Positions 4,641-53,248 of a stretch of 64,000 nucleotides of DNA are shown here, in pieces. The notes under the pieces were generated by a model. It was not told the origin of the DNA. It worked only from the letters and a program-made list of their open reading frames with translations, and did no database searches. Position 1 is the stretch's first letter, and every line of letters begins with the position of its first letter. A program made the position numbers and the translations under genes. Source of the stretch: Chrysophaeum taylorii (taxonomy: Eukaryota; Sar; Pelagophyceae; Pelagomonadales; Pelagomonadaceae); the NCBI GenBank assembly GCA_029834535.1, contig JAQMWT010000181.1, positions 1 to 64,000 of the forward strand. The letters run 5' to 3'.

Positions 4641-4829
4641 AGAACCGGGATCTCTGTCAGTATTACCACTATATGGTTACAAAACTCAGCACACGCCCGT
4701 GGTTGCGCAACCTACTGATCAATCTTCGGACACAAAACGAGTATGTCAGAAAAAATACCCCTCCTCTTGCTTGACTGCGCACTCGACCAGCGTTCCTATC
4801 AACTACAATCAATGGTTCTCGCCAACCAA

Positions 4830-11672: not shown

Positions 11673-12068
11673 TGGATAGATTTGACCCTCTCCGGGTACA
11701 TGGTAGAGACTGCGTGCAGTCTTAGGCGTGTACAGACCATTCCGCTTGTCACATGCTACAACACAAGGTAGGGATTTAAGCCCTACCTCCTTAAGGACAT
11801 TAGGTCCCATAGAAGCGCTTACACTGACAACGAGGAACGAAGCCTCTGTTAATTAAACAGAACACCCCGTACCTGACGGTACGCACCTGGAGGCCTACTC
11901 CATGTTGGAAAAGAGCTTCAGACTGGGTTCTTCATAGTCATGAAAATATATAATTGCGGAATGGAAAGGAAGGAAAGAGGGAAAGCCGAATTACGGAGAG
12001 AAAACCCTCTTGTAGAGATAGGTGCGAAATGTTCCAGTGTCGTACACATAATAGTGTAGCTCTCTGGA
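11673..12068 (-). repeat. C1 3' LTR (396 bp)
   Basis: On the minus strand it runs from TCCAGAGAGC to CTATCCA. The polypurine tract lies just upstream and the target duplication TTTCT just outside. It matches the 5' LTR at 27037-27433 and the C3 LTR at 58528-58927. Confidence 0.9.
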
Positions 12069-12077
12069 CCCCCTCAA
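12069..12077 (-). promoter_or_regulatory. C1 polypurine tract
   Basis: On the minus strand TTGAGGGGG abuts the 3' LTR, as expected for the plus-strand primer of an LTR element. Confidence 0.75.
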
Positions 12078-12100
12078 CGTGTGAAAACGGTTTATGCATT

Positions 12101-14221: not shown

Positions 14222-14304
14222 TGCATTTCACATTTTAGCGAGCCAGTATTCCTTTACATAGGAGGGTTAGTTTAAAGTCATTTCGATATAATGAAGGGTA
14301 AGGA

Positions 14305-16456
14305 TTAACCATTTTGTTGAGCTATGGGCTGTTGTAAGCCAAGTAACGTGCGAAATCTGCTGAAGAGCGGAGCTCCAAAGGGTTTAGTATATCCATCGGC
14401 GATATTATGGGTACCGGGAACATGATGTAGACGTACACGTTTTAACTGTGCGTAGTCGCGAATACGGAACCAGCGTGTGCTGATAGCTTTGGCCATAGTC
14501 GCACTGTCGGGATTATTAGATAGATGAATAGCAGAGGCAGAGTCTCCAAGTATAGGACTGTTACGTATGAACGACATATCCGATGGGAGGGGATTGTCGT
14601 GAGCATCATAATATAGTAGCAGGCCTTTCCCTGAAGGTTGGCGAAGATAAAAATGAGGATTTATAGCGAATGCCATTTCCGTTAACAATTTGCGCAACCA
14701 GACCACAGCATCGGCACACATATTAAGGGCGATAAGTTCACTCTCATGCGTAGAAGTATCTGTGATAGGCTGCAACTTGGACTTCCAAGTGATGAGAGAA
14801 CCAAACAAAAAGATGGCGTAACCGGTTGTATACTTGCGGTCTTGTTCATAAGAGGGTGCGTTATCGGCATCAACGAACGCGACCAATGGATCAAAGTTAC
14901 CTGAATTGACTTGTTCTTTAGTGTAATCCAACGTGGTGGCCATGTCAGTGCGATTGCCGATAAGAAGTCTAAGATGGTCCATTAGAGCGGAAGAGCCAGA
15001 GTAGTACCAGAGTCGGAGATTGCGATTTTCGGGCTTGCGCAAGTAGCGGAGCGTCCCTGTCAGTACTTGAACATGTAGAAATGCTGGATTATGCAATCCT
15101 CGAGAGCAACGACTAAGACTTTGGGGTAAATCAGGGCGACAGGCCAATTGGACAAACGTGAGCTTGCCGAGTAAGGTGGAGAAGGTATGAAGAATAAGCT
15201 TGTCCATATCAGAAGATGGCTCTCCAGTTTTATACGTGGTTGATGGTGACATCGGTGTGGAAGTGGGACGCAACTGTATTAAAATGGGGTACTCTTCGAA
15301 CAATGCATCAAGTTTAGCCTGACAGTCCAGTGATATAGAACCATCAGTAGTACGCGTTATGCGCATGCCTAAGAGAGTATGGACTTCCTCGAAGGTGTCG
15401 ACTGAGTATTCCTTTTCCAGGGCTTGCTGGAATTCACGACGTAGAGTTTCCGAAGTACAGCTGATGACAACATCGTCGACTGAGAGCGTGCAAATTGAAA
15501 ACGTAGCATCAGGTAGAGTTGCCGAAGTACAGCTGATGACAACATCGTCTACTGAGAGCGTGCAAATTGAAAACGTAGCATCAGCTTGGACTTTAGCGTA
15601 AATGCAGGTGTCTGCTCGAAATCGTGTATAGCCTAATGAATCAAAGAAGCCGTTTATGGTTTGATTCCAAAGGGCGGGGCTCTGGCGTAATCCGTAGAGA
15701 GATTTAACTAGCTTTGGGAGACGGCGGCCTTGATATTTAGTATCTTCGGGATCGAGAAGGTAAATGCCTTGTGGCAGTTTAACATATACGTGAGAGTCGA
15801 TGGGAGCTTGAACAAAAGCGTTAGGTACGTCGACATGGTAGACGGGAAGTCGCAGATGGGCTGCTAGCGCCAGAACACAACGGATGCCAGTAAGCTGTGC
15901 CATAGGGCTGAATGTGTTGAAAAAGTCGGGTGCCCAGAGAGGCTAAGAATCCTCGTAGGACTAGGCGTGCTTTATGTTTAAAATATTGACCGGCAGCATT
16001 GGTTTTTATACGTAGGACGAGGCGGGTGTCAATAGGCTTTGAGTTGGCCATTGGCAACGCGAGTTTAAAGCAGCCAAACTTACCAATATCAAAAATCTCT
16101 TTGGAGATGGCGGAGATATAAGCTTTGCGATCAGCGTGTGAAAGACCTTTGAGCCAGTTCAACTCATATTCATCAATTTTGATATCTTTGGCTTGAATCT
16201 TGTATTCGTCCGAACCAACAGTGCTGGGGTCACGAGCCGTCGTAAGATGGGTGATTGCGTAAGAAGCGACATTATCGTGAGTGTGAGCGTGATCGGGATC
16301 TTCGACGAGTTGAACAACTAGTAGAGGAGCATCACCAAGGTGGGTTTCAATGTAATGCGATTGCACGGTGATATAGTCTTCGATGGCGGAGAGGTGAGGC
16401 TCGGAGGCACCATAGGAGGCGTCATTCTGATCCAAAATGGAGTGGGGTGTGAACAA
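14305..16456 (-). pseudogene. C1 reverse transcriptase and RNase H
   Basis: The region starts with the RT N-terminus (DEYELNWLKGLSHADRKAY, RLVLRIKTNAAGQYFKHKAR). It continues with VPNAFVQAPIDSHVYVKLPQ, SLYGLRQSPALWN and the catalytic LSVDDVVIS, then RNase H (FVDADNAPSYEQDRKYTTGYA, STHESELIALNMCAD, HHVPGTHNIADGYTKP). All are classic Copia motifs. The product is close to the C2 RT. It belongs to the broken element C1. Confidence 0.9.
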
Positions 16457-17066
16457 AGCATAAGCATATTGAGCGGGAGGAACCTGAAAGGCGTGAGCAT
16501 GTTCGGAAATTAGATGAACGAGAGCTTGAGAAGGTGAAAGTCTGCAAGGTTGACGTCGTCGCAGAAGTGAACGTGAGGAGACTCGGGCGATGGGTGGCTA
16601 TGGCTCCTATGACACATAACTGAAGAGGACTGTGAAAGCGCTTGGTGAACATGGTGATGAAGGGATGGTGTAAATTCCCCCTCTGGAGGTATAGCCGTCC
16701 AGTGGATGCCATGAGCAAGATGATGGGAGTGGAGGGTGGGGTCGCAAAAAGTTATGTGCTGCTTGGAGAGGTCATACTTGAAGTCGGCAAGCGTACCACC
16801 GGCTTGTTTATAAGCGGCAATAGTAGGCGAGGCAATACGAGTAAGAACATCCTTGAGATTGTTCTTGCGACGAGGTTGAGGGTGATGAGGACCACGGGTG
16901 AGACGTAGGACATCCTGCGAATAGAGAGACCGATAAGATGGTAAAAGTGGCAGAGTGTCGGAGGACACTTCAGATGTAGGAGGTGTGGTGACGGGAACAG
17001 TGGGTGCGGAAGCAGCTGGAGCACATGCGGGAACGGGAGAGGGAGCATGGGGAGGAGGAGCAGGAG

Positions 17067-17075
17067 TCCCCCTCT
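17067..17075 (-). other. Internal AGAGGGGGA tract (C1 linker, second)
   Basis: A nine-base purine run on the coding strand, in frame as E-R-G-T. It resembles the 3' polypurine tract of the same element. Confidence 0.5.
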
Positions 17076-17102
17076 CGTGGTCAGTGTCGGTAGGCATAGC
17101 AG

Positions 17103-17111
17103 TCCCCCTCT
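17103..17111 (-). other. Internal AGAGGGGGA tract (C1 linker, first)
   Basis: The purine run sits in D-A-A-Q-R-G-T-A at the integrase-RT junction. C2 (52962) and A3 (42923) keep it at the same place. Confidence 0.5.
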
Positions 17112-17783
17112 GCGCCGCATCATTGGGGGTGCTGTGAACAGAGAGGGGAATGTCGGGTGAAGGTGCTGGAGGTGGATGCTGTTCATAATCAGGAGGAGAT
17201 TTAGAAAGAATACGAGGAAAGGTCAGTTTAGAGGAAACACGGACTTGGCCGTTTTCAGGATTAAGGACAACATCGGCTAAATGATTAACATGGGGTGTTA
17301 TTAAAGGGTTTATGACATTAGCACCACATAAGTAGATGTAAGGACGACATCGAGGCTCATATTTATGAAATTCGTTAGGTTCCAAATGCAGATAACAAAC
17401 AGAACCAAAAGGTTTGAGGTAGTCCTGTTGGGGAACATTACATTTTTCTAACAAAACTTGTTGCGGGCTTAGGACTTTATTATAAATACGCTCGAGGGAA
17501 ACGTTAGGGAGGAGATTATACGATTGGATAGCATGTATAACAGCCCTCGGGTAATGTGGTGCCGGATCTGTTAGGGGGTGACCTTTATAGGATACATTAA
17601 GCATATGCCGGAGTCGTGCAGACGCGGCAGTGGCTACGTGACCAACAGCGGCTTCTACTTCATGATTAAAGACACGTAAGTAAGGGGGGGACGCGGACAT
17701 GTTAATACCATGTTCCACACGAAAGGGGGTTGTTACATGCTGAGATAAATAGGGTTTAAAGGAATCACAATAGATTTGTTTTA

Positions 17784-17803
17784 ACTAACTAACTAAACTA
17801 ACT
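17784..17803 (-). repeat. (GTTA)n 3' tail of the LINE
   Basis: About five GTTA-like units close the LINE on the minus strand. The same tail closes the two short derivatives at 11146 and 38813. Simple-repeat tails replace poly(A) in several LINE clades. Confidence 0.8.
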
Positions 17804-17873
17804 TCGGACCTCTCCCGGGCATGGGAGCCAGGCTGGGCCGGTAGTAGCCGGTCCAGGATCACAGAGCAAAAAA

Positions 17874-20267
17874 TCACACAGTTGGGGTAGAAGCTTGGGA
17901 AGAAATTGCATGGATGGCGGACCGCCACTGCGCGCGGTCTTGTGCGAGGTCGTGCCACGAGTTGAAGGGGATGTCGCATTTCCGGAGTGCCTTGGCGAGC
18001 GACCTCCCGTACGTCATCTGCGGAGCCCCTGGTGGGCGCTTGGAGCGGACCCAAGACGAGAGCATCTTGCGAGGGAGTCGAGAGAAGGGCATGCGGGCGA
18101 CGTGACCGGCCCAGCGGAGCTGGCGGCGCGTGACGTAGACGTCGATGGACTCGAGGCCGAGGCGCCGCCGGAGGATCTCCGTTGAGATGTGGTGGGACCA
18201 GGTGTGTTTCCGGGTCACACGACACATGACGCGGGCGCACTGCGCGTGGAAACACCGCAGCCGGCGGAACAGGACCTCGGTGAGGCACCACGATTCCGCA
18301 CCGTGAAGGAGGATGGCCAGGACGAGCGAGACATAGACGAGGCGCTTGGCGCGAGCAGAGACGGACTTCGAGGCGAAGATGCAGTCCCGCAAGGCACCGA
18401 AGGCCTGAGACGCCTTCTTGATCCGCGCGTCGACGTCTGAGTCGTCGCGGCAGTCGCGCGAGAGGACCGAGCCGAGGTACTTAAACTGGTCGACGACCGG
18501 TATGAAGCGGCCGCGCCCGAGCTCGATGTCCGAGAGGTTCGTGTCGTCGAACGACTTTGGGTCGCCGTACAGGTGTGCCGGGCGAGCGACGAACAGCATC
18601 TCCGTTTTGGACGCCGCTTTCGTGTGTCGGTTGCCGCAATGCACCTCCATGCCCCAGGCGTCGCAGTGTTCGATGAGGCGCGGTGTCTCGCTGGCGGCGA
18701 TGTGGCGGTCCCAGAAGAGAAAGGCAACGTCGTCGGCGTACGCCGATTCATCGAAGGGAAACTCGTCGCCGCGAGCGGACCAACTCCGGTTCGTCATCTG
18801 AAAGTCTTTCCGCGTACGGTAGACACATGGGGTGCGGCCATGGCGTCGTCGAAACGACGTCGTCAGTGCCGCCATGAACAGCACGAACAGGACGGGGCCC
18901 AGGACGTCGCCCTGCTTGACGCCGATGATCGAGTCAACCGAGGCGACGACACCGCTGACCGAGAAGTGGACCTGGATTCGGTGGAGGCCCTTGATGACTG
19001 CGACGAGCTTCGGCGGGACGCCGAACTTCAGGAGCACCTCCCAGAGAAGCTCTCGCGGGACGCGGTCGAACGCCTTAACGAAATCGATGAACAGTACCCA
19101 CGAGTCCTGACCGTGCTCACGCCGCTTCTTCAGCGCTAGCTTGAGCGAGAAGGTGGCGTCGGACGTACCGCGCTCGGGTCGAAAGCCACATTGAGACTCG
19201 TGATCGAGGGCCTCGCAGATGACGTTGAGTCGCGCACGGACGATGTTCGAAACGATCTTCTGCGCGACCTCGAGCATCATGATCCCGCGGTAGTTGCCCG
19301 GCAGGGAGAGGTCCCCCTTCTTGGGGAGAATCCCGAGGAGGCCTACGTCCCACTCGGCCGGCTGGACTTCAGACTCCCAGAACTCGAGGACTACACGCTC
19401 CAACAGCGGGAGCGTGCGAGCGTCGGTGGCGAGCGCCTTCCAGACCTCCGCGCGCAGGCCCGATTCGCCGGGCGCGGTGCAGTTCAGCTGACCAACGGCC
19501 CGTTTTATCGCCTCCTGCGTCGGTGGTTCCCCGAGTTCCGGACGGATCGGCAACTGGTCAACGTCGTTGATCACGGTGGGGTCGTAGCGAGCTTGTCGAC
19601 TGTAGAGCTGCTTGAAGTGCGCCTTGAACACGTCGGCGTTCTCCTGTGGCGACGAGCACCTGCTACCGTCGGCCTTCGTCATCTGCACCTGCCTAGCCAA
19701 TGTGGTCTTCGTGAGACCGCGTCGGAGCCGTTCGACCGTATTCCAGTATTTCGAGGTGCCGCCGAGCGACTCGCTTCCCGCGTTGAGTCCGGCACACAGA
19801 CGAGTAATCCATCGCTCTTTCGCCCGTGCTACGGCCTTCGCGAGCCGCGACTTGATCGCCCGAAGGTCGTCGAGGATCGTGGACGCCGAGCGAAGACGGC
19901 GCCGGGCACCGAGCGAGAGCACAAACGCGTGGAGGGAGTTGCGTCGCTCGATCAGAGGCTGGAGTTCTTCCGCCGCGTCCTCAAACCATCCGGGTCGGAG
20001 GCGTCGGGTCTTCGGCAGTAAGGCGTCAGAGGCCGAGGCCGCCGCCCGCGCAAGGCGGGAGTACGGCGAGGACGGCGAGCCCTGGTCGGCGTCGGCCTGG
20101 TCGGCGTCGGGTATCTCGTCCGTGGCGTCGGTCGGTGCGTCGTCGGTCGCGTTGTCATGTGACCCACGGCCCAAGCCGAAGATGTCGAGCACTCTCGAGC
20201 ACCACCGGCGCCGGAATCCGAAGCGCGTGCTTTCTGAGCGCAGGGGAGCGTAGTCAAGGCGCGCCAA
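17874..20267 (-). CDS. LINE reverse transcriptase
   Basis: This 797-residue frame performs target-primed reverse transcription. RT motifs in order: GILPKKGDLSLPGNYRGI, SQCGFRPERGTSDATFSL, WVLFIDFVKAFDRVPR (motif A), GVKQGDVLGPVLFVLFMAAL (motif B) and FDESAYADDVAFLF (the YADD catalytic box). A thumb/C-terminal region follows with QFKYLGSVLSRDC, ILLHGAESWCL and LRRRLGLESIDVYVTRRQ, ending in LAQDRAQWRSAIHA. No zinc knuckle or RNase H is obvious. The first 14 bp overlap the endonuclease frame in another phase. No internal stop is seen, so this copy may have been active recently. Confidence 0.9.
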   Translation of the reverse strand: MARLDYAPLRSESTRFGFRRRWCSRVLDIFGLGRGSHDNATDDAPTDATDEIPDADQADADQGSPSSPYSRLARAAASASDALLPKTRRLRPGWFEDAAEELQPLIERRNSLHAFVLSLGARRRLRSASTILDDLRAIKSRLAKAVARAKERWITRLCAGLNAGSESLGGTSKYWNTVERLRRGLTKTTLARQVQMTKADGSRCSSPQENADVFKAHFKQLYSRQARYDPTVINDVDQLPIRPELGEPPTQEAIKRAVGQLNCTAPGESGLRAEVWKALATDARTLPLLERVVLEFWESEVQPAEWDVGLLGILPKKGDLSLPGNYRGIMMLEVAQKIVSNIVRARLNVICEALDHESQCGFRPERGTSDATFSLKLALKKRREHGQDSWVLFIDFVKAFDRVPRELLWEVLLKFGVPPKLVAVIKGLHRIQVHFSVSGVVASVDSIIGVKQGDVLGPVLFVLFMAALTTSFRRRHGRTPCVYRTRKDFQMTNRSWSARGDEFPFDESAYADDVAFLFWDRHIAASETPRLIEHCDAWGMEVHCGNRHTKAASKTEMLFVARPAHLYGDPKSFDDTNLSDIELGRGRFIPVVDQFKYLGSVLSRDCRDDSDVDARIKKASQAFGALRDCIFASKSVSARAKRLVYVSLVLAILLHGAESWCLTEVLFRRLRCFHAQCARVMCRVTRKHTWSHHISTEILRRRLGLESIDVYVTRRQLRWAGHVARMPFSRLPRKMLSSWVRSKRPPGAPQMTYGRSLAKALRKCDIPFNSWHDLAQDRAQWRSAIHAISSQASTPTV

Positions 20268-21171
20268 AGGGCCGTGTGCCAGGAGGCCGTGCGAGGCGGA
20301 CTTTGACGCGCAGGATGCACTTGAGAGCGCGGTGGTCCGAGTCCACGAGGCTGCTGGTCAAACCCACATCAGCGAACCGGTGCACGTCGCGCCGCCGTGA
20401 GATCATGTGATCGAGCTGGTACGTTTTCCAGGAGCGCGGGTGCAGCCACGACGCGTAGGCGCGCTTGCGGAAGAACGTGCCGACCGACGCCAGACGCCGT
20501 GTTGCGAGGAACGTGTGGAGACGGCGGCCAGCGTTGTTGACGTAAGGCGCCCCGTAGGGCCCACAGGGGCCGTCGACGACGTACTTGGAGCGCACGCCGA
20601 GAGCCGCGTTCCCGTCCATCCCCAGGACGAGGATGTCGTCCGGCCGTCGCGCTTGAAGCGCAAGGTCAATGTCGTCGAAGAACGCGTCCCATTTTTCGTC
20701 AGGCGCGGTTCCGACTGGAGCGTAAGCGCTCATGACAAAGAGGCCGAGGTCTCGATCGTCATCGTCCTGGACATCGAGTCGCAGCGCAATAACTCGCGCA
20801 GATGCGCGGATAACGGTGCTGCCGCTCGCGTGCCACGCCTGTTGCGCCGCAGGGGACAGCACCACGGCCACACCCTGGCTGCCGCGGGAAGACTGCTCGG
20901 AGGCTGCCAAACCGGAACAAACAGCGACGTAGCCGTGTCGCTCGAGCGACTCGTTGCCGGTGAGCCACGTCTCCTGCAACGTGGCCGCGAAGATGTCCCG
21001 CCGCCGTAAAGATGCGAACAACTCTTCCTTATTCTCGTCGCGTCGCAGACCGCGAACGTTTTGGTCCACGAATAATCGACCCGTCCGTCGCTTTCTACCC
21101 AACCGAGCGAACCCCATCCCAGCGCAGACTTTCCGGGTGCTAACCGGCCAGCCCGGGAGGCGGGCAGGCAC
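20254..21171 (-). CDS. LINE apurinic/apyrimidinic-type endonuclease
   Basis: This 305-residue frame nicks target DNA to prime reverse transcription. APE/EEP-family motifs appear in order: FVDQNVRGLRRD at the N-terminus (N of the first motif), TLQETWLTG (catalytic Glu), VMSAYAPVG, LGMDGNAALG (the GDxN motif, with an inserted residue), ASWLHPRSWKTYQLDHM and VDSDHRALK (catalytic Asp-His). All active-site positions look intact. The frame ends just inside the start of the RT frame, so the two may once have been one ORF now split by a frameshift, or may be linked by reinitiation. The first Met lies inside a conserved 5' segment also present in the two short derivatives. Confidence 0.85.
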   Translation of the reverse strand: MPARLPGWPVSTRKVCAGMGFARLGRKRRTGRLFVDQNVRGLRRDENKEELFASLRRRDIFAATLQETWLTGNESLERHGYVAVCSGLAASEQSSRGSQGVAVVLSPAAQQAWHASGSTVIRASARVIALRLDVQDDDDRDLGLFVMSAYAPVGTAPDEKWDAFFDDIDLALQARRPDDILVLGMDGNAALGVRSKYVVDGPCGPYGAPYVNNAGRRLHTFLATRRLASVGTFFRKRAYASWLHPRSWKTYQLDHMISRRRDVHRFADVGLTSSLVDSDHRALKCILRVKVRLARPPGTRPFGAP

Positions 21172-21282
21172 CGTCTCACTCCGGGACGGCCGGGGCCGCC
21201 GCAGGGAGCAAGCGTATTAGGCGCCGTCCTCCATCGCAACCATAAGGTTAACGATCGCAAGGGTTAGGGTAGATTTGTTTTA

Positions 21283-21800
21283 GTTGTACATTAACATAAG
21301 TAGAGCAAAAATTGTGGACAAACTCAAGGGCGTTACAAAATTCGCTGGAGTTAGTACTACGACAAAAGTACACTAACGAAACTTTAGAAGTGAGACACTT
21401 AAAAACAATGATATGTCGAAAGGATCCCCATTCCGAGAGAACAGATACGTAACCACCGTCACATGCCCAGGCTTCACCAGGTTGAAAAATTTTTTCGAAT
21501 GATGGTTGCTTGGTAAGATGGTGTGGATGAGGGAAGCGTTTTTTATGAATCGTACAATCCACACAGAACTTACGGTAGGGTACGTCAGATGGGTGATGTC
21601 CCGGACTGGCAATAACCTGAACAGCTTTTATAGCTTGAGAATCACTAGAATGGTGGATGTTGTGAAAATTGGTAGCTCGCTGTTGTGCATCTCGAAATGC
21701 GAGGGTGCCCCTGGCATGAACTTTCTTATCGAAGGGCGCATGCTTCTCAAGGAGCTGTCTTGGTGTTATGATAAGAATTTGTCTTTCTTTCGTAGGAGAT
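21283..21800 (-). pseudogene. C1 integrase N-terminal part
   Basis: The zinc-binding domain reads NIHHSSDSQAI...YRKFCVDCTIHKKR (HHCC arrangement). The catalytic core starts at EAWACDGGYVSVLSEWG, giving the first Asp of D,D-35-E, and continues with HIIVFKCLTSKVSLVYFCRS. The core is cut by the LINE at 21270-21282 and resumes at 17770. It matches C2 at 51890-52350. Confidence 0.85.
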
Positions 21801-21849
21801 GATATATCTGCGGATGAGGTGTTGGAAAGGAAGACATGAGATACTGAAT

Positions 21850-23790
21850 CGAGATGAGAAGATGGGAGTTCGTGGTTAGAAGCAAGATTATCACTAAAAG
21901 AGATTTTTTTATTATATATGTATAACATTGTAATGGAACTCTGGTGTAATATTAAGGATGTATCTGTTGGGAATGTATTTGTGAAAAAGGTCGACCTATA
22001 GTTTTTGGTTAGAGAAGCATGATCAGGGTCAAAAGATGGTGATAGCGTTAATTTACGCAAGTCATAGACAAGCTGACACAAATGTTTATAAATTACATGA
22101 TGTGTTCCAGCCGGAATAGCATTAGCGATTATGTCACAGCACAGGTCCGGGGACAAAGACAAAAGAAAATTGATTTGGTACGCTGTTAAGTTATTGGCGC
22201 GTGCCAATTCACGAGTAGAGTAATGTCGAATGCGATCGAGTCGTGGATTGTACACGAGCATATTAGCAAATCCACGAATGGTAGGAGTGGGCGTGTATAT
22301 AGAATGAACTTTGGCACCCATCTTCCTACCGCTTGATGTAATAAAGCCCAGGTATCTGCTTTGGGACAGATGCATGTCACTTAAAGACAACATTTCATCG
22401 ACAAATTCGAGACGATTTTCCTAAGGGTAGAAGACAAAAGAATCGTGAAATACAGGAGAAGTATAGGGAACCAGTGCTTGTACTAGACGACGCGTGTCTT
22501 GATTTTCATTATTATTATGGTATGCTTGGCAAAGCCAAAGAAAACCAGTAACAAGATCGAGAGAAGCAGTCTTATCGATTCCGGCATCATGTGTTAGGAA
22601 GGTATAGGTTTCGCCAAAAGCATTTATATGTGCCTGGTATTTAGAAGAGGAGTTAGAAACTGTTATGTCTCCGCCCGTGTGTCTTCCACCGGTGATGTAA
22701 ATGATGGGGGAAGTAGAGGATTTATTTAAGAATAACCTGTGAGATGGTTGGTTAGATTCGATAGTTGTAATACGAAAGGACACAGGTAATGTGATAGATT
22801 TAGGGAATAAACGTCCCATAATACTATAGAGGAGCAGAAGAGCTTTGAGTTCAATAGGAGATCTCATACAAGCAAGTGGTTTTCTTGAATTAGTCAAGAA
22901 TCCCAGGCGAAAGTTAGAAATGCCCTCCATGTCATCTTGACTTGGATGTTCGACTGTTTTGTTAGAGTGCAAACGAAGAAACAACATGGTTAAGGTTTCA
23001 AGTTCAGTCACAGTTAGACGAACAGATCCTGTGCGACTGAAGATGTTTTAGGTTTTAGGTGTGGACACAAATGGTATGTCGGGAAAGACCTGCGTCCAAG
23101 GTTCGTCGACTATTAACTTGCGACTGATGGAACTAGCGTGATCTGCAATGTCCAGAAAGGAAGTAACTCGTTCGTTAGGCCAGGAAAGCAGATAAAGATG
23201 GCCGGTGTTATATTGCGTGCAACGAGGATCCATCTTTCCCTGGCTTGATAATCTCCACACAAATAGCATGGAAATCGGTCACATATATCCACCGTATAGT
23301 GCATCGTTGAGAAGATGAGGTTGGCAACTCGTATATGGTCTTCATACGATGCGGAATGTGGTGGTGTCATTTCCATGAAAAGAGCAAGCGGCTTTAAAAG
23401 TTCAAGTACACTTAGAGCACTTGGAAACAAGGAATCGTCCATATCACGCTCGAAGGTTGAAATGGATCTCCCATTGATTATGTTGCGATTTGTGCATGGG
23501 GATGTCAGTTCCACTATATCGGTGTAATATCGTGCACGTTCAGCGTCCGATGCTCGATGGAGATATGTCAGAAACTTGGGTAGGGATGGGAAAACTTCGA
23601 TGGAATTACCAAAAAGTCTTCGTAGCATGTGCGTGAGATTGTCGTCGCTCTCAACAAGAACTGTAACGTTGATGTTGATTTGCAAGTCATTAGAAGCGCA
23701 AGCCAAGAAGGCAGGAGTGGACATCCCAGAGCAAAGTAGAGTTACAGTAGGTGTGCGTGAGCTAGGAGACGTAGTTACTGTGTGAAGCAA
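21850..23790 (-). pseudogene. C1 cytosine-5 DNA methyltransferase-like domain
   Basis: This is the best preserved copy of the domain between protease and integrase. Motif I: TVTLLCSGMSTPAFLAC near 23740. Motif IV: VELTSPCTNRNIING near 23500, with the Pro-Cys nucleophile. Motif VI: LALFMEMTPPHS near 23370, with Glu. Motif VIII: LCGDYQARERWILVARN near 23250, with an exact QxRxR. The target-recognition region covers about 23200-22330 (YITGGRHTGGDITV). Motif IX: RHYSTRELARANN near 22220. Motif X: IIANAIPAGTHHVIY near 22120, matching GNAVPP. The key catalytic residues of the family are all present. The domain is interrupted a few times, so it is a fossil. Confidence 0.82.
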
Positions 23791-23923
23791 ACGTGTGGTA
23801 ACCTTGCGTCATACGGGAGGTGGGAAATGCTTGCGTATGTAAGGCAGCTGCGAGTGCATTGACTCCAATATGGTTTTGAGCCATGGGACGTAAATTACGC
23901 GTTCCATGAGGGTGGAATATAGC

Positions 23924-25027
23924 TTAAAGCATTTCGCGTTGTTCATTAAAAGCACTTAGTATGAACTGTAGTGAGCGAAGTTCCATTCTACGCGCCTTTG
24001 CTTGTTGTAGCGAATAAATTGGTAGAGTAGGCAACAGGTTATTCAGTCTAAACAAAGTAATCTTGACATTATCATCAATTTTACTCTGGATAGATGATTG
24101 TCCTTTAAATTCAACTCCATAAAGATGTATACCAAGTTTATCTTCTCCCCATTGAGTCATGCTGATGATGTGCAGATCGGGATCGTTATGGTCGTTTTGC
24201 TTGGGTAGGAAAAGCGCAACGTCTAGCTTTACATATCCCACATTTGGATGCTTCGGGAGAGCGGGGATGACCGTCTTTATAATCATAGCATGTGTGATAC
24301 TCTGCGTATCCGTAGCAGTCTGGATAGCAGGTGATAAGGACTCGGGTAGCTTTGCGATGTGGATAGGATCAGCGTAACGTTTAAAGTTAATTACATGTTG
24401 AGAAGCACATGTGTCAGCATATCCTGGCGTAGTCATTAGCGGCAAATTGTACTCGTTGTACAGTTTAAGCATTGTTGCATAACAGGCATGTGTTGAGCTT
24501 TGACCAAACACGTACTGTGTCATGAAACTTTGCGTTTGTTCGGAAGGCACAACGACGAGTGTAAAACCATTGTTTAATTTTGGTAGCAACACAGGGGGAT
24601 CTGTGCCATCTTCATTATCTTCATTGGGTAGATTATTTGGGAGCTCGGAGTGCGAGGAAGTTTCCCGAGCTTGACGACGAACGATAGCATTCTGAGCTTT
24701 AGCGTTTATGTGCTGCAATAGCGGCTGAGGGATGTTATCGATTTCATCATCTTTAATGGACAGAAAAGTGTGAAACATTTTCTCTGTTTCAGCGGTCCCC
24801 CTCTGCTCCGCATCACTGGGGGACGCTTCAGGAGCAGATGTTTCAGCTTGATGCTTTTCTTCTAAAACATGAGATTCCTTATCGGCTTCTAAGAGGCTCA
24901 CTATGGTATTGGACATAGTATCAACTCGAGATAAGTAGAGATGAACTTGGGTGGCTTCATCAGGATCTAAAGACTGTGTCGAAGCTTGAGAAGCGGTTGT
25001 CCAGAGGGTACTCAGTAAGCTTTTCAT
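23924..25027 (-). pseudogene. C1 gag-protease linker and aspartic protease
   Basis: A linker carries the S-D-A-E-Q-R-G-T-A block with a purine tract (24796-24804). The protease follows, with the active-site strand PGYADTCASQHVINF (DTCA in place of DTGA) near 24430, then TATDTQSITHAMI, HPNVGYVKLDVALF and SMTQWGEDKLGIHLYG. It aligns with the CopA protease block by block and would process the polyprotein. The C3 copy (61100-62160) is nearly the same. Confidence 0.8.
24796..24804 (-). other. Internal AGAGGGGGA tract (C1, gag-protease linker)
   Basis: A purine run in D-A-E-Q-R-G-T-A. C3 has the same bases at 61167-61175. Confidence 0.5.
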
Positions 25028-26472
25028 TTCCCCTGTACCATTTTAGAGTCGGTAGAGGGGTTGGGATTCGCTTCCTGTAATTTACCAAACAGGTGGCGAA
25101 GACGATCAACTTGATAAGTAGCCCGGTCCATAAGAGACATATTAGAGCGTGCATTACGGTTAGAGGAGTGTGAGTAGACAGGACGATCGAAACTGGTACC
25201 TTTGACGTTATAATTTGAAGGTGGACGATAGTACGACGTGTCACGAGGTGAAATTGTCGATGCTTTATCTTTTGCATTACGGAGCTTACGAGCGTTGAAG
25301 CCAGACTGTCCAGCCACAGTAGCTAACAACGAGTAAGCATTGTTTAGAGAGTCGTGGGATTGATGAATAGTATCCATCAATAATACCTTAGGTGGCTTGG
25401 TAGCGGTAGTACCAGGGATGTAAGGGATCCATGAAGCGGGTTTATCCAAGCGTCGGTTAGAGGAAAACTTTGTTTCATTATATATCTTTAACAGGAACTC
25501 CAATAACGGACGAACGTCGTTAGGATCAACTAGCTTCAACAATTCAGGATCGTGAGTCGAGTTGTTCCCAGAGCGTGTCTCGTAGAGTTTACACCATTCC
25601 AATAAAGACTGAGAATCGCGCTCGTGATCCGAGGGATTAGCATATAGACGATAGATCTCCTCGTGAGCTTTGAGAGTGATTATGGAATCATTAAATTGGA
25701 TTGATGCTTCATCATTATTTAATTGCTTTGCCTGAGATTGGAAAGCAAGGAGTTGTTCGACGAGTACATGGGCATACCAATTAACATTTAAAGACATTCG
25801 ATTAAACTGAGATTTAAGCTCAGTAACATCTGTACAAGACACTGTCTCATAGTAGTCGTAAGCTAAAAGCATTACTGCACGTAGTTTATTTGGATATCCA
25901 GTAAGTGCATATATCTTCTTTAATTGAGGCCACATAGCGAGTGCGGGTTTTTCTTGTGATTCCAGATTAAAGAATGTGTACAAGAAACCAGCATACGTTT
26001 CGCAGTGTTTGATCCAGTCGGCATTAGAGAGACCTGTAAAGGATATGTTAGTTAGAGATGAATCATACACAATTGATTTAGGGAATCGGATATCTAATAA
26101 AGTGAGGACACGTTTAACATCCTCATTTAATTCGGGACGAACGAGATTGTATGATTCTTGGTAGTAAAGTCGTTCGAGATTATTACGGACATCAACTGTT
26201 AGTTGATGTGATGAATTGACGTGCCAAGTTTTAAGATGATCAGGCAAGGCATCTTCATCAGGTAAGTGTAAATCATTTACTTGTTCAGCTTTCCATTGAG
26301 CGAATATGATATCAACTTCTTGTTCAAGAAGTTGGTTATACTCCGGAGCATTCTGGGTGTAAGCTTCATACGAATCGAAGCAGAATAACGCGTCCACGTA
26401 TGGACTTGTCATATGCCTGCGAAGCACCTCAATTTGTAAGCTCACCTTGGTTGAGTTGTCTTGGAAACGCAA
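25024..26472 (-). CDS. C1 Gag
   Basis: An open frame of 482 residues encodes the particle-forming Gag. It is mostly helical, begins around RRHMTSPYVDALFCFDSYEAY, contains LPDHLKTWHVNSSHQLTVDVR and DKPASWIPYIPGTTATKPPK, and ends with a Ser/Asn-rich basic stretch (TISPRDTSYYRPPSNYNVKG) and the helix MDRATYQVDRLRHLFGKLQ. No CCHC knuckle is seen. The true start may lie slightly upstream. The C3 Gag is about 95% alike by eye. It is part of a fossil element. Confidence 0.78.
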   Translation of the reverse strand: MRFQDNSTKVSLQIEVLRRHMTSPYVDALFCFDSYEAYTQNAPEYNQLLEQEVDIIFAQWKAEQVNDLHLPDEDALPDHLKTWHVNSSHQLTVDVRNNLERLYYQESYNLVRPELNEDVKRVLTLLDIRFPKSIVYDSSLTNISFTGLSNADWIKHCETYAGFLYTFFNLESQEKPALAMWPQLKKIYALTGYPNKLRAVMLLAYDYYETVSCTDVTELKSQFNRMSLNVNWYAHVLVEQLLAFQSQAKQLNNDEASIQFNDSIITLKAHEEIYRLYANPSDHERDSQSLLEWCKLYETRSGNNSTHDPELLKLVDPNDVRPLLEFLLKIYNETKFSSNRRLDKPASWIPYIPGTTATKPPKVLLMDTIHQSHDSLNNAYSLLATVAGQSGFNARKLRNAKDKASTISPRDTSYYRPPSNYNVKGTSFDRPVYSHSSNRNARSNMSLMDRATYQVDRLRHLFGKLQEANPNPSTDSKMVQGK

Positions 26473-27022
26473 TCCTGCGTTGATTTTATCAACGAGGTTT
26501 TGTTCTTGTTTGTAGATATCCGTAGTGGATATTGGTTATTGTTTTGACATGGTTGTTACCTATTAAAGAATAGGTTATAGGATTGATATACAGATTCGAC
26601 ACATAAGAATGAAGGGTTTCTCGAGTGCGGGTCATATGTACAGTACGCTATTTTAAGAGTGGACTTTTTTACAACACCAAACAAATCAACATGCTATTTA
26701 AAAACAGGATGACTTGGGACTGAAGAATGGATTAATTCTCGAGCAGTCAGTCTTTTGTTGGGGAATAGGAGGAAAAAAACCGTACAAGTTTCCGCGGCTT
26801 GTGTAGGAAAATTTTTAATTTTATTGGCTATGCGAGTGCATATGACCAGTGACCGACCCAACTCGGTCACAAACCAAATTAACTGGTGGGCACATACCGT
26901 CACACAACAAATATGTACAGTAGACCACCGTCAAACACATTTTCGCATTGTACTCGTGATCAGGCGCAAATTGATCACTCCATTTATACGTACAACACAG
27001 TTGGGCTGACACACCTACGCAT
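26473..27022 (-). other. C1 untranslated leader
   Basis: About 550 bases between the primer-binding site and gag. It is AT-rich and similar to the C3 leader (58942-59556). No other gene is seen in it. Confidence 0.6.
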
Positions 27023-27036
27023 CTGGGCCCATAACC
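27023..27036 (-). promoter_or_regulatory. C1 primer-binding site (initiator tRNA-Met anticodon arm)
   Basis: On the minus strand GGTTATGGGCCCAG directly follows the 5' LTR. It is complementary to the anticodon stem-loop of eukaryotic initiator tRNA-Met (CTGGGCCCATAACC), the half-tRNA priming known for Drosophila copia and Ty5. Confidence 0.85.
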
Positions 27037-27433
27037 TGGAGAGATTTGACCCTCTCCGGGTACATGGTAGATACTGCGTGCAGTCTTAGGCGTGTACAGA
27101 CCATTCCGCTCGTCACATGCTACTACACAAGGTAGGGATTTAAGCCCTAACTCCTTAAGGACATTAGGTCCCATAGAAGCGTTTACACTGACAACGAGGA
27201 ACGAAGCCTCTGTTAATTACACAGAACACCCCGTACCTGACGGTACGCACCTGGAGGCCTACTCCATATCGGAAAAGAGCTTCAGACTGGGTTCTTCATA
27301 GTCATGAAAATATATAATTGCGGAAGGGGTAAGGAAGGAAAGAGTGAAAGCCGTATTACGGAGAGAAAACCCTCTTGTAGAGATAGGTGCGAAATGTTCC
27401 AGTGTCGCACACATAATAGTGTGGCTCTCTGGA
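27037..27433 (-). repeat. C1 5' LTR (397 bp)
   Basis: On the minus strand it runs from TCCAGAGAGCC to CTCTCCA, with the target duplication TTTCT outside and the primer site inside. Confidence 0.9.
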
Positions 27434-27438
27434 TTTCT

Positions 27439-28280
27439 TACAAACTCCTCATCTACGTTGAATATCCACCTTCTTGCTGGTGCACGCCATTCCGAAGGCA
27501 GCCTACTTGTTGAAAACAAGATCAGCAAATACCAAGCTTCCATTGACGCATTCGGATCCACCTACACCCTCACTGCCGGCGATAGTCCCGCTGACAAGAC
27601 ACTTCATCTTGATTCCTTCCAAGGATATTTTTGGCTCGTGCAAGCTTATCCCCCAGTCGACACAGCTCACGGCACCCTCCCTGCCATCCGCAATCTGCTA
27701 CAACAGTGCGCCCTTGTCATGCCCAACTGTGTTACTTATGATCAATCTTCCGACCGGCACTCTTTCAAAGACAAGTACTTCTCATTGGAAGACCATCACC
27801 TTTCTCACAGTCGGTATATTGGCTACTTACGCGGCAGCGACCGCAAGCTTGGATCCAAATTCCATTATATGCTTGCCCCTCTGCCCACCATACGTTGATA
27901 CGCCAGCGTGATCTTGCTGGATCCACGCAACGGGGAACTCGCTACCCAGCTCGCTCTGAGCTTATTAAAGCCAGGAGCCATACTCGCCCTCAGGCAACCT
28001 TCTTACTCTCACCGAAGAAGGACCTGTGCTGTGATCTTCTCAGCAATGCCTTGCCTGCAGGCAGTTACCATACTCTCTATACGCATATATGCCGCATGGT
28101 TGTCGATATGAAGACTCCCATGTTGGATCCCTCCTTTCAACATGATCTTGCCACGTTGAAGAAAGAAAGAAGACCTATGTGTCTACCTTCTTCACTCAGG
28201 AGCTGGCTCTCTCCAGTCACAGCTCAGACACTATCTCCCAGGCTGATGCATTCATGAGCTACATCTCCAACCGCAGCTGG
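27439..28280 (+). pseudogene. A3 DNA methyltransferase-like domain, last part
   Basis: The target-recognition region resumes after C1 (NIHLLAGARHSEGSLLV, KYQASIDAFGSTYTL, LHLDSFQGYFWLVQAY). SHSRYIGYLRGSDRKLGSK and the LAPLPTIR block lead to motif IX near 27940 and to motif X, LLSNALPAGSYHTLY, near 28040. The T-E-M-S-L-N-Y site at 28281-28301 ends the domain. The TSD at 27434-27438 and the intact A2 sequence prove continuity with 11672. Confidence 0.75.
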
Positions 28281-28301
28281 ACCGAAATGTCGCTAAACTA
28301 C
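28281..28301 (+). other. S-L-N-Y site 7 (A3, methyltransferase / integrase border)
   Basis: T-E-M-S-L-N-Y-R-S-S. Confidence 0.75.
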
Positions 28302-28399
28302 CGCTCCTCAGGAACTGCACCTGGAGAAGCACTTTCTACAGCCACAACTGCTACTGATGTTGACTCCAACGACGACACCACCGCTCCCTCATTAGATGC

Positions 28400-28521: not shown

Positions 28522-29610
28522 AAAGGTTTCTCCCGTCTTGCTAATTGTCTTCGTACCCCGAACGACTCTCAGCTCCTCGACGAAGATAAGGCTGCGATTC
28601 ACCATCTGCTCAAGCTTATTGCACGCATCACAACGCACCACAGTTATATCGACGTTTGAACGCAGCTTCTGGGCTCACCTCAAGCCCCACCACTCCCTCA
28701 ACTTCAAGCCTCTCCGCTTTGTCACCGACGTCGGTCGTCTGCAGACCAAAGACAAAGACAATCCGCGCCTCCGTTCACGCCGCCTTGGTTTCCACCTCAC
28801 CGAAGTTGACGATGACGCTTCTCCTCCCGAAGACGAGAAACCCCCTGATCCAGACGACGCATCTCCGGACGACGCCGACCTTGTCGACGCCTTTATCACT
28901 GACGTCTCGACCCAGACGATGACAACGCACGCATCCAACACCTCCACGCTTATCGCAAGAAACAACTCACTCGCCACCCTAAGAAAAACAAAAAGCCCCT
29001 GAATCCTCGTTCACCGTCATACTACGACATCAATGACTGTCCCAAGCCCAAGACCACCCCGGTCACACCCACCAAACATAAGCCAAATCCCCGTGTTCCT
29101 CCTGTCACCCCTGACAAAGCGAATACCCGCACCTCCGCAAGGTCACATTTCCCACACAAACGCACCCTCCCAAGCCACCCACTCCTGACCAACGGTTCGA
29201 AGTCCCACTACGTGATGTTCGCCGTAAACCCCAGACCATCCGTAACCTCGGTCAAGCTGCCCGGCAACACACCTCCAACTCTGACCGCATGACCAAGCTC
29301 ATCAGCCTCATCACCGCCATCTCTGACGAGATTCTCCTATCTGAGGCTGATACTGATGCCGCCGACTTCCTTCAGCTCCTCTCCTCCGACCAACCGCGGG
29401 ATGATCAAGCTGATGAGGGCGCAATCGACGATGGCTTGTCATATGATAACCAAGGTCTACTCGGTTTATATGATGACCAAGGTCACTTTGGCTTATACGA
29501 CGATGACCAAGTTCCCGAGATCGAAGATCAAGAAGACTCAATCGAAGAATACGTACAACGCCACCAAGACTACATACTTGCACTTCATCAGAGCCGGCTT
29601 GTTCGCTAGC
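28522..29610 (+). pseudogene. CopB gag region
   Basis: Decayed coding sequence between the LTR remnant and the protease. It is rich in Pro, Lys and Arg (KKNKKPLNPRSPSYYDIN, KHKPNPRVPPVTPDKANTR) and then acidic (DDQVPEIEDQEDSIEEYVQ). It is placed as gag by position and composition only, since no homology to the CopA or CopC gag is visible by eye. Confidence 0.5.
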
Positions 29611-29649
29611 GGTTGCCGACGACGCCTGTGCCGCCAACCAAACAACTTA

Positions 29650-29945
29650 AATCAGGCACCCAGCCTGGCGATGACAAAATTGCCCACATCATCGACAATT
29701 TCCAACACAGTCGCAGATTTCTTATGCGCAGCGTACACCGCAGGAAATCCTTCTAAAAATACGAACTCCCTGCACGGATGCAACGGCCCCGGCACCGAAT
29801 TTTCTTTGCTCGACGGCGGTGCTTCCTTTTGTTTACTCGCACCACAACAAATTTTGTTCAAGAATCCATACGCAGGATTCCCGAGCATACCATCCGCATG
29901 GGAAGAGGCACTCTCACCAGCAACTTCATTGGTATAAAGCCACCA
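29650..29945 (+). pseudogene. CopB aspartic protease region
   Basis: The frame contains TEFSLLDGGASFCLLAPQQ, a retropepsin-type active-site strand (D-G-G-A in place of D-S/T-G-A). It lies between the acidic gag end and the methyltransferase-like domain, as in CopA and CopC. It is partly decayed. Confidence 0.55.
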
Positions 29946-29999
29946 TATCTGCAAGCTGCAGGTCTCTCATCACACGACATCAAAGGCTCTACTGGCTAC

Positions 30000-32150
30000 G
30001 CATTATACTTGGTTTTCCTGGTCGTCCCGCATTTCCGACCAGGTTTACAGGTTATAACGACATCCCAGTTAAAAGCTCTCAAAGTTCAGGCAACGGACCC
30101 GCCGTTGCCGCAAATGCCATATTTGTATGAATTTCTGAAAAACTCCACTTCAGACCCTCATGACTACAAAACACTTTTAAAAACCACTGCTGTAGTTATC
30201 GCTCATCGACAGACTAACGGCCTCCTGTCACTGCCATCTCATCCTAAGCATGTATTCGCCAATGTGGTCAGCTTCCACACTCGTCGCGAGATGTCCCTCA
30301 AGGATGAAATCGCAAACATTACGCAAAAAGTCGCAAAAACACGCTCGCAGTCCCATTTTCTCGATTTTGCCAAATTGCAAGCTTATTCTGCTTTTCTGGC
30401 GGAATCTTTCAAACTGCCGAGCCCCTATTTAGAATATGCGCTCACTGGTACCGCGGTCCTCTCTGTGTTCACACAACCCCCTCCGCTGCACACCGCCAAT
30501 ATCGCAGGTGGACTCCACCAAGAAGGCCTCACCTCCTTTCGCAAACGCTTCGACAAACGCATTATTGTCGTTGTCACCTGTGAAATTAACCCCACCATGC
30601 ACGCCCGCGCGCAACAGGTGTTCCCGGATGTCAGCATTACAGGGATCTCAGGCAGCTTACTGCGCCCTTCAAACTGGCAAACTACGACTGCCTCGACTTG
30701 AGATGGCTGTCTTCACCCTGCCCTGTCAACACCCAGCGTAATGAAGGAATATGATGGCCATGCAACTCCAGCGACTGCCGATCTTTTGGTCAAAGAACAA
30801 GCCCGCTTTGTTCGTTGCATGCTCTCGACATACACCACTGTCGATGACGTTCCACCATACCCGAAAACTCATCACGAGTGCACGCAACTCGCCAAACACT
30901 ATCAATGTGTGGGCTACTTTCGACACTCCGGTGTCTACAACGCCTCAACCTTCGGCGACGCCATAAGCAAGCACCGCTATCTCGCTGTCTTCGCTCGGCA
31001 CCCGCTATATGGCTACAATCTCCAGAAAACGGCCTCCTCCTGGTTGACATCCCCATCGAGCATGGTTCCCTTCTTGGACCCTAGTCACACCATCCCAGGA
31101 GATCTCTGGATACCCGCCCCCGCCCTTCGCGGCACTGTGACCCGCTCAACCTTGGATTACCATCAACAAAAGGCTATCTTCTCGTACACACCCGCCAACG
31201 CAGCTCAACTGTCGATTTACGAGAATGCACGCATCTGCCAAATGCTCGCACGTCCAAAGCAGCCTTTCATGGATCTTGGACTAGACGCAGACGGCACCCC
31301 CTATGCCTCCATGACTTCCATCCCGCACCTCCTGGTATTTACACTACTGCACAACCACTTGCTGCAACACCCCACTCTCGCCTCCTGGAACACGCTTCGC
31401 TGCTTCCACGCTTCCGAGTCAAAATGCGCCTACCAGCTGGATGGACTCGTCCCCGGCACCGCTGCTACCGCCCTTGCATGCGGCTACTTCACGCGCGCCT
31501 CGCTCACGCTCCATTCGCGCCACCCCCAGATCCTGGATTGCTCCCACCAAACCGCCGCTTTCTCGCCGCAACACGCCTTCTCCCTGTCTGTCCCCAAGGG
31601 CACCGCTTTTCTGGTCGTGGCCTTCACCACCTCCTCGGCTGCCGCGCACAGCTGCTCGCGTCCCTCCACGTGGGTCCACTACATGAATCGCTCGCACCCC
31701 GGATTTGCCGCGATCGATTCACGAGGGCGAATCACTCTCGATGACCCCACGGGACTCATAATGTCCGAAGCACGTCCCACTTACGCGGACTATGTCGGCC
31801 ACATCGGCGAAACGCTCCGGAAAAGCACCAAGTGCTACTCGGTCACTGGCTCGTACCCCGCCAACACGAGTCACTCCAACGCACTTCTGCTGGTCTCCCC
31901 CGAACGCATCCGATACGCGACTCTTGACGAAGTCGCAAAATTTGGACACCATTCGGACCCAGCGCTTCTCCGCTTGTTCCGCCAGCACCCACCGTTCTTC
32001 GCGTTCAAGGCACTGGCCAACGCTGTCCCACTTAACATGCTGCAGGCCAAGTACAGTGCTGCCCTCGCACATCACGCCTCGCATCACCACGTGGACCTTC
32101 ACATCGAATGGGGCGCCCTACGCAATGGCATTCCTAGCCCAGGAGACATC
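30000..32150 (+). pseudogene. CopB cytosine-5 DNA methyltransferase-like domain
   Basis: Motif I is recognisable near 30480-30640: ANIAGGLHQEG, then VVVTCEINPTMHARAQQVFP, which parallels the VAVEINP...F block of C5-methyltransferases better than in the other families. A Ser-Pro-Cys block near 30710 stands for motif IV, and VDDVPPYPK near 30845 for motif VI. GDAISKHRYLAVFARH near 30955 stands for motif VIII, with QxRxR poorly kept. A target-recognition region spans about 31010-31850. RIRYATLDEVAKFG near 31905 is motif IX, and FKALANAVPLNMLQAKYSAA near 32000 is motif X, an almost canonical NAVP. It is part of a broken element. Confidence 0.75.
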
Positions 32151-32399
32151 TGTCAGATCACGGAACTCTGCTCCAACATCGCCGGCCGCCTCCTAGCAGT
32201 TGAAGACCTCCACCTCACCTCCCTCTTCGGTGCGGTTGCAGGTCCTCACTGTGCTGCGATTCGCAAGTCACCCAACTCGAGAAACCTCGGAACGTTGCTT
32301 GCCGAAGCCACCGTTGCAAAGGTCAGAGTTGACAAGCGAGCCACCCGCCCGAGCACACCGACTGTTGCGCTGCCTCCTTTTCACAAGCCTGGCACCATT

Positions 32400-33340
32400 C
32401 AGCACGCTCAAAGAGTGCTCCTGGTCACCCGCTGGCACCGCATTCACCACCAGCAGCCCGAGATTCTTCGCCGCACGATCGCAGCTAATGTCACTAACCT
32501 CCGCCCAGGTGATGACCGGTATCTGCAGGACTGCACCGACTGCAAGCGCTGCCAGTCACGCGTCGGTTTCAGCCAGTAGAACGCTTATTGGTCGCATGGC
32601 GAACTGGCCTATGCCCCTGGCCAACATCTCCACATGGATGTGTCCTACCCGAGCATCCGCAAATGCTATGGTGGATTTCGTTACATCACGCACTTCGTGT
32701 GCGTTATATCGCCCCACAAATGGGTATACTTCCTGCGGAAACTGGACGCACAAGACGTTCTTGCAGGAATCCTCTACGTGGTCAACGTCGTAAAGGTCGA
32801 ATTCGATGTACATGTTAAAATGATATCATCGGACGCATTCTCGACATTCCGCTCCGAAGCCTTTCACCCGCTCAAAGTGCAACTTGGAGTCCAGTTTCAA
32901 ATCATTGGTCGCCACCTACACCAGCGGAACTTGGTGGAAAACATCATAAAAGAAAACACCAGGGGCACCGTCGTTCGCCTTCCGAATCTGCGCCATGTTC
33001 GCATCAAAGGGAAGCCCATCAGCGCCGAGTATTACCATCCGTTTGCTCTGCTGCACGAGATCCAAGCCGACAACCAACGCTCCCATGGACTGCCTTCGCG
33101 CACTCACATGTCTTGCACCGTCCCCAGGCGCATCATGTCGTCAAAGGCACCACTCTTGAAGCTCCTCCCATTTGGCGAACCAGTCACTTTCGTATACCCG
33201 CGAAGCCATCAAATGGAGCCCTCCAGCGTCTCGGCCTCCTACTTCCACAGCAACAATTATCTGCCTAACCTCCCGGGCACTGGCAGATTTAGCCGCGATG
33301 TCCACAGCCCCATCCTGCTTGTACATCAAGGGAAGTAAGG
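32400..33340 (+). pseudogene. CopB integrase
   Basis: The zinc-binding domain reads WHRIHHQQPEILRR...QDCTDCKRCQSR (HHCC). The catalytic core has HLHMDVSYP (first Asp), MISSDAFSTFRSEAF (second Asp) and RNLVENIIKE (Glu), so the D,D,E set is visible. This is a Copia integrase joining element DNA to the host. It is interrupted, as in the rest of CopB. Confidence 0.78.
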
Positions 33341-53246: not shown

Positions 53247-53248
53247 TA

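Follow-up and report, generated by a model that had tools for sequence, protein, structure and literature searches.

A methyltransferase-like domain between protease and integrase in a Copia retrotransposon lineage

What is encoded between the protease and the integrase of the Copia element C1? The sequence-only reading of this locus had placed a cytosine-5 methyltransferase-like domain there, on the strength of six motifs. All six were located in the window (the whole stretch of DNA that was analysed, 64,000 nucleotides), on the minus strand and between a protease-like open reading frame (ORF) and the integrase: LLCSGMSTPAF (motif I, 23739-23707), SPCTNRN (motif IV, 23502-23482), FMEMTPP (motif VI, 23379-23359), GDYQARERW (motif VIII, 23256-23230), STRELARANN (motif IX, 22219-22190) and IIANAIPAG (motif X, 22132-22106). 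The questions that follow are whether this C-type domain is a methyltransferase, how it would be expressed, and what it would act on.

The C1 element and related copies in the window

C1 extends from LTR to LTR on the minus strand (11673..27433) and is inserted in a C2-type Copia copy, with a target-site duplication of TTTCT at 11668-11672 and again at 27434-27438. Its 5' LTR (27037..27433, minus strand) shares 95.97% identity (397 bases) with 11673-12068, the position of the 3' LTR (11673..12068, minus strand; ~96% like the 5' LTR), and is also matched at 58524-58927. Next to the 5' LTR lies a putative primer binding site (27018..27036, minus strand; ggttatgggcccagatgcg), a stretch that we take to resemble the complement of the initiator tRNA-Met anticodon arm. 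An ORF of 503 aa at the gag position (25024..26535, minus strand) and a protease-like ORF of 372 aa (23924..25042, minus strand) follow, both without a Pfam match; the protease call is based on DTCASQH (24424-24392), presumably a protease-like motif. Directly ahead of the methyltransferase frame stands an in-frame TGA (GTA TGA CGC AAG; 23809..23811, minus strand).

The domain itself is spread over three minus-strand ORFs. P0003 (23113..23808) holds motifs I, IV, VI and VIII and leaves the family frame after ~23205; P0002 (22421..23047) covers a variable, target-recognition-like region and terminates at an in-frame stop; P0001 (21248..22420) comprises motifs IX and X, a linker and the start of the integrase, whose marks CVDC and AWACDGGYV lie at 21565-21446 (minus strand). 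Within the integrase there is a LINE-like insertion with RVT_1 (17785..21260, edges approximate, minus strand), beyond which the remaining integrase and the reverse transcriptase are found (15221..17784, minus strand; reverse transcriptase 16528-15670). An RVT_2 match (E = 1.9e-30) in 14308-15942 lies downstream of the integrase, and this order, together with LTRs and a short target-site duplication, identifies C1 as a Ty1/Copia element. An end of C1 at 21250 was ruled out, the element continuing past the LINE-like insertion. An Rfam search of 21000-29000 returned no match.

Since the frame is lost at ~23205, an in-frame stop occupies 22421-22423 and the integrase part of Pol is split by the LINE-like insertion, the C1 copy is unable to make the enzyme. 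We read C1 as a defunct member of a Copia lineage in which Pol would open with a cytosine-5 methyltransferase domain; judged jointly with the whole mechanism proposed below, this reading has about even odds.

The window contains several related copies. A near-twin of C1 (58524..62553, plus strand, 92.9% identity) breaks off within the domain and has its own TGA at 62159-62161. A damaged C2-type methyltransferase-like domain lies at 4802..6716 (plus strand), and the C2-type domain of the copy interrupted by C1 is found in two parts (10243..11672 and 27434..28399, both plus strand). A damaged S-type Copia copy, from protease to integrase, occupies 29555..32825 (plus strand). Also observed were a further C1-like Copia copy, from integrase to reverse transcriptase, at 51646-56400 (~71-74% DNA identity to the C1-type locus L040), a degenerate S-like methyltransferase fragment at 46023-46713 (~26-40% identity to S-type copies), and a frame at 48030-49613 that resembles MULE transposases weakly (E 2.4e-4, below cut-off).

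Identity, conservation and abundance of the domain

A genome of 70.8 Mb was searched for relatives. With the N-half of C1, at least 151 matches were found, the 150 listed all at ≥75% identity (150 scored of 1048 candidates), and with C2 at least 150, those listed all at ≥63% identity (150 scored of 923 candidates); among the matches listed, the two sets had no place in common, and several of the relatives lie in frames of more than 1000 codons. For 63 of the best 150 of 1670 RVT_2 candidates, one of the C1 or C2 domains listed lies 1.5-9 kb upstream and on the same strand, often at a distance of ~4.0 kb (C2) or 4.25 kb (C1). A sample of 17 of the remaining 87 places revealed the domain in 12 and none in 5, one of the latter being shortened by a contig end. 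The survey therefore suggests that the main Copia families of this genome usually include the domain.

Across these copies motifs I, IV (Pro-Cys), VI (Glu), VIII (QxRxR), IX and X are retained in canonical order. In a set of 56 C1- and C2-type places, mostly chosen by likeness to the I-VIII region, the motif IV Cys is present in 54/56, the motif VI Glu in 55/56, and the Gln and the two Arg of QxRxR in 53/56, 55/56 and 56/56, respectively; the motif IX Glu is kept in 43/45 and the N, A and P of motif X in 42/42 each. The mean majority fraction per region, for comparison, is 0.75-0.81. C1 and C2 are 49% identical, and free variation of the motif residues, which would have spoken against a methyltransferase, was not what we observed: between the two types they are nearly fixed, at 95-100%. 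Some motifs deviate in form. C5-methyltransferases are expected to have FxGxG as motif I; the copies have CSGMS or CSGLS, and their motif X is mostly ANA or SNA, not GNA.

Selection was assessed as median dN/dS in four dS classes (150, 270, 91 and 128 pairs). For motifs I-VIII the medians are 0.100, 0.073, 0.066 and 0.064, values biased downward because most copies were chosen by likeness to I-VIII; for IX-X they are 0.293, 0.125, 0.074 and 0.073, for the variable region 0.29, 0.193, 0.113 and 0.197, for the linker to the integrase 0.518, 0.432, 0.262 and 0.191, and for the protease-like ORF 0.311, 0.229, 0.090 and 0.073. Copies chosen instead by their reverse transcriptase gave I-VIII values of 0.133 for C2 (32 pairs, 9 copies) and 0.096 for C1 (3 pairs, 3 copies), and retain the Cys in 8/9 readable cases, the Glu in 10/11 and QxRxR in 11/11. 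The corresponding S-type value is 0.128 (66 pairs, 12 copies). The methyltransferase-like domain of the Copia family is thus maintained by purifying selection.

The domain called in the sequence-only reading is present and under selection; a significant PF00145 match on C1, which that reading had looked to, did not materialize for any of P0001-P0003. In the Pfam search of the C1 pieces only two unrelated matches below cut-off appeared, DACND (0.034, the best for P0001) and MxiC_C (0.12). Of seven intact C-type domains, L031 alone matched PF00145 (residues 104-199, E = 0.061; 13.2 bits, the cut-off being 22), and at E ≤ 10 none of the seven gave a match to any other Pfam family. NCBIfam and other profile searches of the intact C-type domains yielded nothing significant, nor did C-type profiles against PDB sequences. 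An AlphaFold2 model of the N-half of C1, built from an alignment of four window sequences, was unusable (pLDDT 41.2, pTM 0.33), and a fold search with this low-confidence model, which gave no significant match, was set aside. No relatives of the C, S or Gypsy domains were found in IMG/VR, from which records of the source genome may be left out, and none of the S and Gypsy domains in the protein database.

Indirect evidence comes from the S family. The S-type locus L041 is a single frame of 1952 codons with matches to PF00145 (1.1e-7), rve (0.006, weak) and RVT_2 (1.6e-38; the L040 RVT_2 match is 1.4e-23), and matches NCBIfam dcm at 2.4e-8, below dcm's own cut-off. The rve matches are weak throughout (E 0.006-0.009, below cut-off). 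The S-type domain occupies the same position in Pol as the C-type domain; S and C1 share 41% identity in the reverse transcriptase (181 aa) and 25% in the integrase (236 aa). Aligned with hhalign at full length, the C and S profiles share 384 columns, in which motifs VI, VIII, IX and X are matched to one another. The local-mode score of 30.9 exceeds those of two reversed controls (21.9 and 20.9); the global-mode score of 4.5 does not beat the controls (7.1 and 4.1), and the N-half comparison (14.7) falls below its own reversed controls (24.8 and 23.2). QxRxR is retained in C-type and its Gln lost in S-type, each family having drifted its own way. The S-type places (L003-L008, L041, L042, L067-L070) match PF00145, yet have ISKxR at the QxRxR position.

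Could the domain be no methyltransferase at all, its motif order a chance resemblance in some different domain of Pol or in a defunct relic? The lack of a significant direct profile match and of a usable structure, and the N-half hhalign scores below controls, speak for such a view. On the other side, the catalytic residues are among the best kept, a dead relic would not keep dN/dS near 0.1, and the S family has a PF00145-positive domain at the same place in Pol, with which the C-type domain aligns in order through motif X. The pattern PC..QxRxR..N[AS][VIL]P, at loose spacing, occurred in 11 of 200,000 shuffles of the L040 domain (5 with two Glu added) and in 14 of 200,000 for the sister family L071 (3 with two Glu added), figures that overstate the surprise because the pattern was composed with the motifs already known; the PF00145-positive L041 domain itself fails it, its motif VIII being without Gln. 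We consider a non-methyltransferase very unlikely. Conversely, and on the motifs, their conservation and the S family taken together, the C-type domain (the METHYLTRANSFERASE question) very probably descends from C5-methyltransferases, and it is likely to be catalytically active.

A PF00145 search of the genome scored 123 of 474 candidates, of which 57 matched at E ≤ 0.001. Two are gene-like: L001, matching Dnmt2 (1g55, 3.9e-39), and L002, matching 7r76 (3e-143), a structure labelled Rad8 that we take to be Cryptococcus DNMT5. Among the other 55, 12 were inspected and 12/12 are S-type. In the searches made, the host's own complement would be a single DNMT5-like gene for maintenance and a single Dnmt2-like gene; others may have escaped, because the search ignores introns and scored the best 123 of 474 candidates. 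A match to chlorophyll a/b-binding proteins (1.2e-13) in a frame opposite L001 points to a probably photosynthetic host. Four loci (L063-L066) were inspected among 67 weaker matches. In L063 (G000:C235:19500-25500), a Gypsy-type element with RVT_1, RT_RNaseH and an H2C2 integrase, the domain lies ahead of the reverse transcriptase (PF00145 7.4e-5, 22.8 bits, above cut-off); all 121 scored relatives of this domain (of 1043 candidates) are ≥78% identical, and L064 is a near copy. L065 (PF00145 2e-8) and L066 carry Gypsy-like relatives of the domain, each a candidate element or host gene. Within this genome, PF00145 is thus matched above cut-off by S-type Copia domains and by others of Gypsy type or Gypsy-like. 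In the searches made, its LTR retrotransposons, from two superfamilies, carry hundreds of cytosine methyltransferase-like domains.

The retained stop codon and the possible substrate

The stop ahead of the domain, which the sequence-only reading had not mentioned, is not peculiar to C1. Rows with fewer than 24 readable upstream codons having been left out, an in-frame TGA is present in the C1 set in 36 of 37 rows, which comprise 30 distinct 180-nt sequences, and in the C2 set in 27 of 31, with 28 distinct sequences, counts that include places counted twice (window/L009, L026/L040, window/L043) and one C1-set row that looks C2. It lies 12-24 codons upstream of the domain start, with an open frame ahead of it. 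Exceptions are one rearranged place in the window, which recurs in the two sets; L072, which lacks a stop; and L087, where TAG stands in altered surroundings. The coding sequence flanking the TGA is similar between C1 and C2 on both sides. In C2 the codons near it vary, silent positions included, and the next codon is CTA in 11/28 and CTG in 6/28 of the rows with a stop; in C1 it is CGC in 35/36. UGA followed by CUA is a known read-through context. No RNA structure above chance was detected after the TGA in four stretches.

As in a read-through Gag-Pol arrangement, the stop is retained with coding sequence on either side. Because the L041 and L040 frames are free of TGA over 1952 and 1173 codons (their other two frames have 9-41), TGA is not generally read as sense. 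Re-initiation was rejected for C1: an ATG overlaps the TGA out of frame, and no in-frame ATG lies between the TGA and motif I in the C1 rows inspected. Some C2 copies have TGA ATG or an ATG beside motif I. A non-AUG start or splicing may operate instead of read-through. Read-through is the probable route, in which the methyltransferase would be the first domain of an extended Pol product; the kept stop codon would tie the domain to Pol in two Copia families.

We propose that the Gag and protease of a C-type element would be translated first, and that a minority of ribosomes would pass the conserved in-frame UGA, appending methyltransferase, integrase and reverse transcriptase. The methyltransferase would thereby accompany the replication machinery. 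As its most likely target it may methylate cDNA of the element itself, either ahead of integration or in the course of it, and each new copy would then arrive already marked. For this proposal as a whole, read-through and cDNA marking included, we see the chances as roughly balanced. The sequence-only reading had suggested that the family may have methylated its own copies or host DNA to hide from silencing, and that protease sites at the domain borders might release a mature enzyme.

The mutational record of the copies bears on the substrate. CpG observed/expected ranges over 0.86-1.04 among the measured Copia stretches; a Gypsy stretch has 1.13, two host-gene loci of higher G+C have 1.26 and 1.46, and a LINE-like region has 1.19. 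CpG is therefore lower in Copia copies than in the host-gene loci or the LINE-like region, and TpG/CpA is higher (1.11-1.23 versus 0.71-1.01). Pairwise transitions at CpG relative to other C are 1.07-1.08 for C1, 1.19-1.43 for C2, 1.15-1.40 for S (the upper value from 3 pairs) and 1.55 for Gypsy (2 pairs); at C1 four-fold sites the values are 0.146 for CpG and 0.108 for other C. The mutational CpG signal is mild and mixed, and strong CpG decay is excluded. Light or brief CpG marks, other sequence contexts, RNA targets or other DNA may all be compatible with this record. On the sense strand of the C1-type loci L009-L040, C/T differences (46570) outnumber G/A differences (16187); at C1-type four-fold sites, where codon structure is partly controlled, C/T also exceeds A/G.

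The mildness of the CpG signal would suit an enzyme that acts on RNA in a Dnmt2-like manner, its substrate being the primer tRNA or the element RNA. The Gypsy-type domain does resemble Dnmt2: its only matches among PDB sequences are Dnmt2 chains (weak, E 0.038-0.084), and its best pair in the N-half hhalign comparison is the host Dnmt2. An RNA target was also raised for the LINE enzyme in the portions of de Mendoza et al. (PMC5890265) at hand. This likeness belongs to the Gypsy-type domain and not to C1, however; the N-half of C scored slightly higher with DNMT5 (18.3) than with Dnmt2 (16.8), and the domain adjoins integrase and reverse transcriptase, where cDNA would be available. We regard an RNA substrate as unlikely.

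Alternatively, the enzyme could act mainly on host or competing DNA, such as viruses or other transposons, rather than on its own element. The high copy number of the elements and the presence of a host DNMT5-like maintenance gene that could copy the marks would be in keeping with this, and transposon methylases have been proposed to act against DNA viruses (PMC6338049, in the part at hand). A selfish element would gain little directly from marking host DNA, and we judge such a target quite unlikely. A more far-reaching version, in which retrotransposons are the genome's only de novo methyltransferases, marking themselves and, by spill-over, the host, with DNMT5 copying the marks, seems to us a long shot; if true, parasites would author the methylome. 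DNMT5 is a maintenance enzyme, and some species with it, e.g. Cryptococcus neoformans, are without de novo activity (PMC10538959, in the part at hand). With a DNMT5-like gene and transposon-borne methyltransferases in one genome, who starts methylation becomes a directly testable question. Under our preferred reading of cDNA marking, too, elements may write the very marks that hosts use for silencing.

Comparison with known systems

The sequence-only reading had pointed to a 2018 paper on retrotransposons with captured methyltransferases; the portions of de Mendoza et al. (2018, PMC5890265) at hand report Symbiodinium LINE and DIRS and Klebsormidium Gypsy elements as carriers, and Symbiodinium Copia elements as being without any DNMT domain. 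As in these DNMT-bearing retrotransposons, the domain described here lies in the coding region of the element, in many copies and under purifying selection. KnitGypsy-Dnmt3 of Klebsormidium nitens shares with C1 an LTR element, a cytosine methyltransferase within Pol and purifying selection; it differs in being a Gypsy element, with a Dnmt3 by phylogeny, and no recoding stop is described for it in those portions (PMC5890265). SymbioDIRS-Dnmt3 and SymbioLINE-Dnmt likewise present hundreds of intronless methyltransferase copies in retrotransposons, although these are DIRS and LINE elements and not Copia, and the SymbioDIRS enzymes perform de novo CG methylation in yeast (PMC5890265, same portions). 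By phylogeny the DIRS and Gypsy enzymes of that study fall in the Dnmt3 clade, and the LINE enzyme in a Symbiodinium-specific clade.

Copia has been named as a carrier before. One sentence of PMC12344493 (2025) mentions a DNMT3 'LTR Copia', citing the 2018 paper, whose streptophyte element is Gypsy; the text at hand describes no Copia element. PMC6338049, in the part at hand, lists Gypsy and DIRS as carriers, and the available parts of PMC9998398 and PMC12477816 contain no Copia element with a methyltransferase. A limited search of the open-access literature, a thin basis for novelty, found no Copia element described as carrying a cytosine methyltransferase. Retrotransposon methyltransferases as such are already known; on that thin basis, what appears new here is the Copia carrier, its genomic weight and the TGA arrangement. 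Cytosine methyltransferases are known from few groups of retrotransposons, and in this genome such a domain would be usual in the main Copia families and present in one Gypsy family.

With Ty1/Copia elements generally, C1 shares its LTRs, the protease-like ORF and the order of integrase followed by RVT_2 reverse transcriptase. What sets the C-type elements apart is an extra methyltransferase-like domain of 540-570 aa between protease and integrase and, in both C1 and C2, the in-frame TGA in the same interval.
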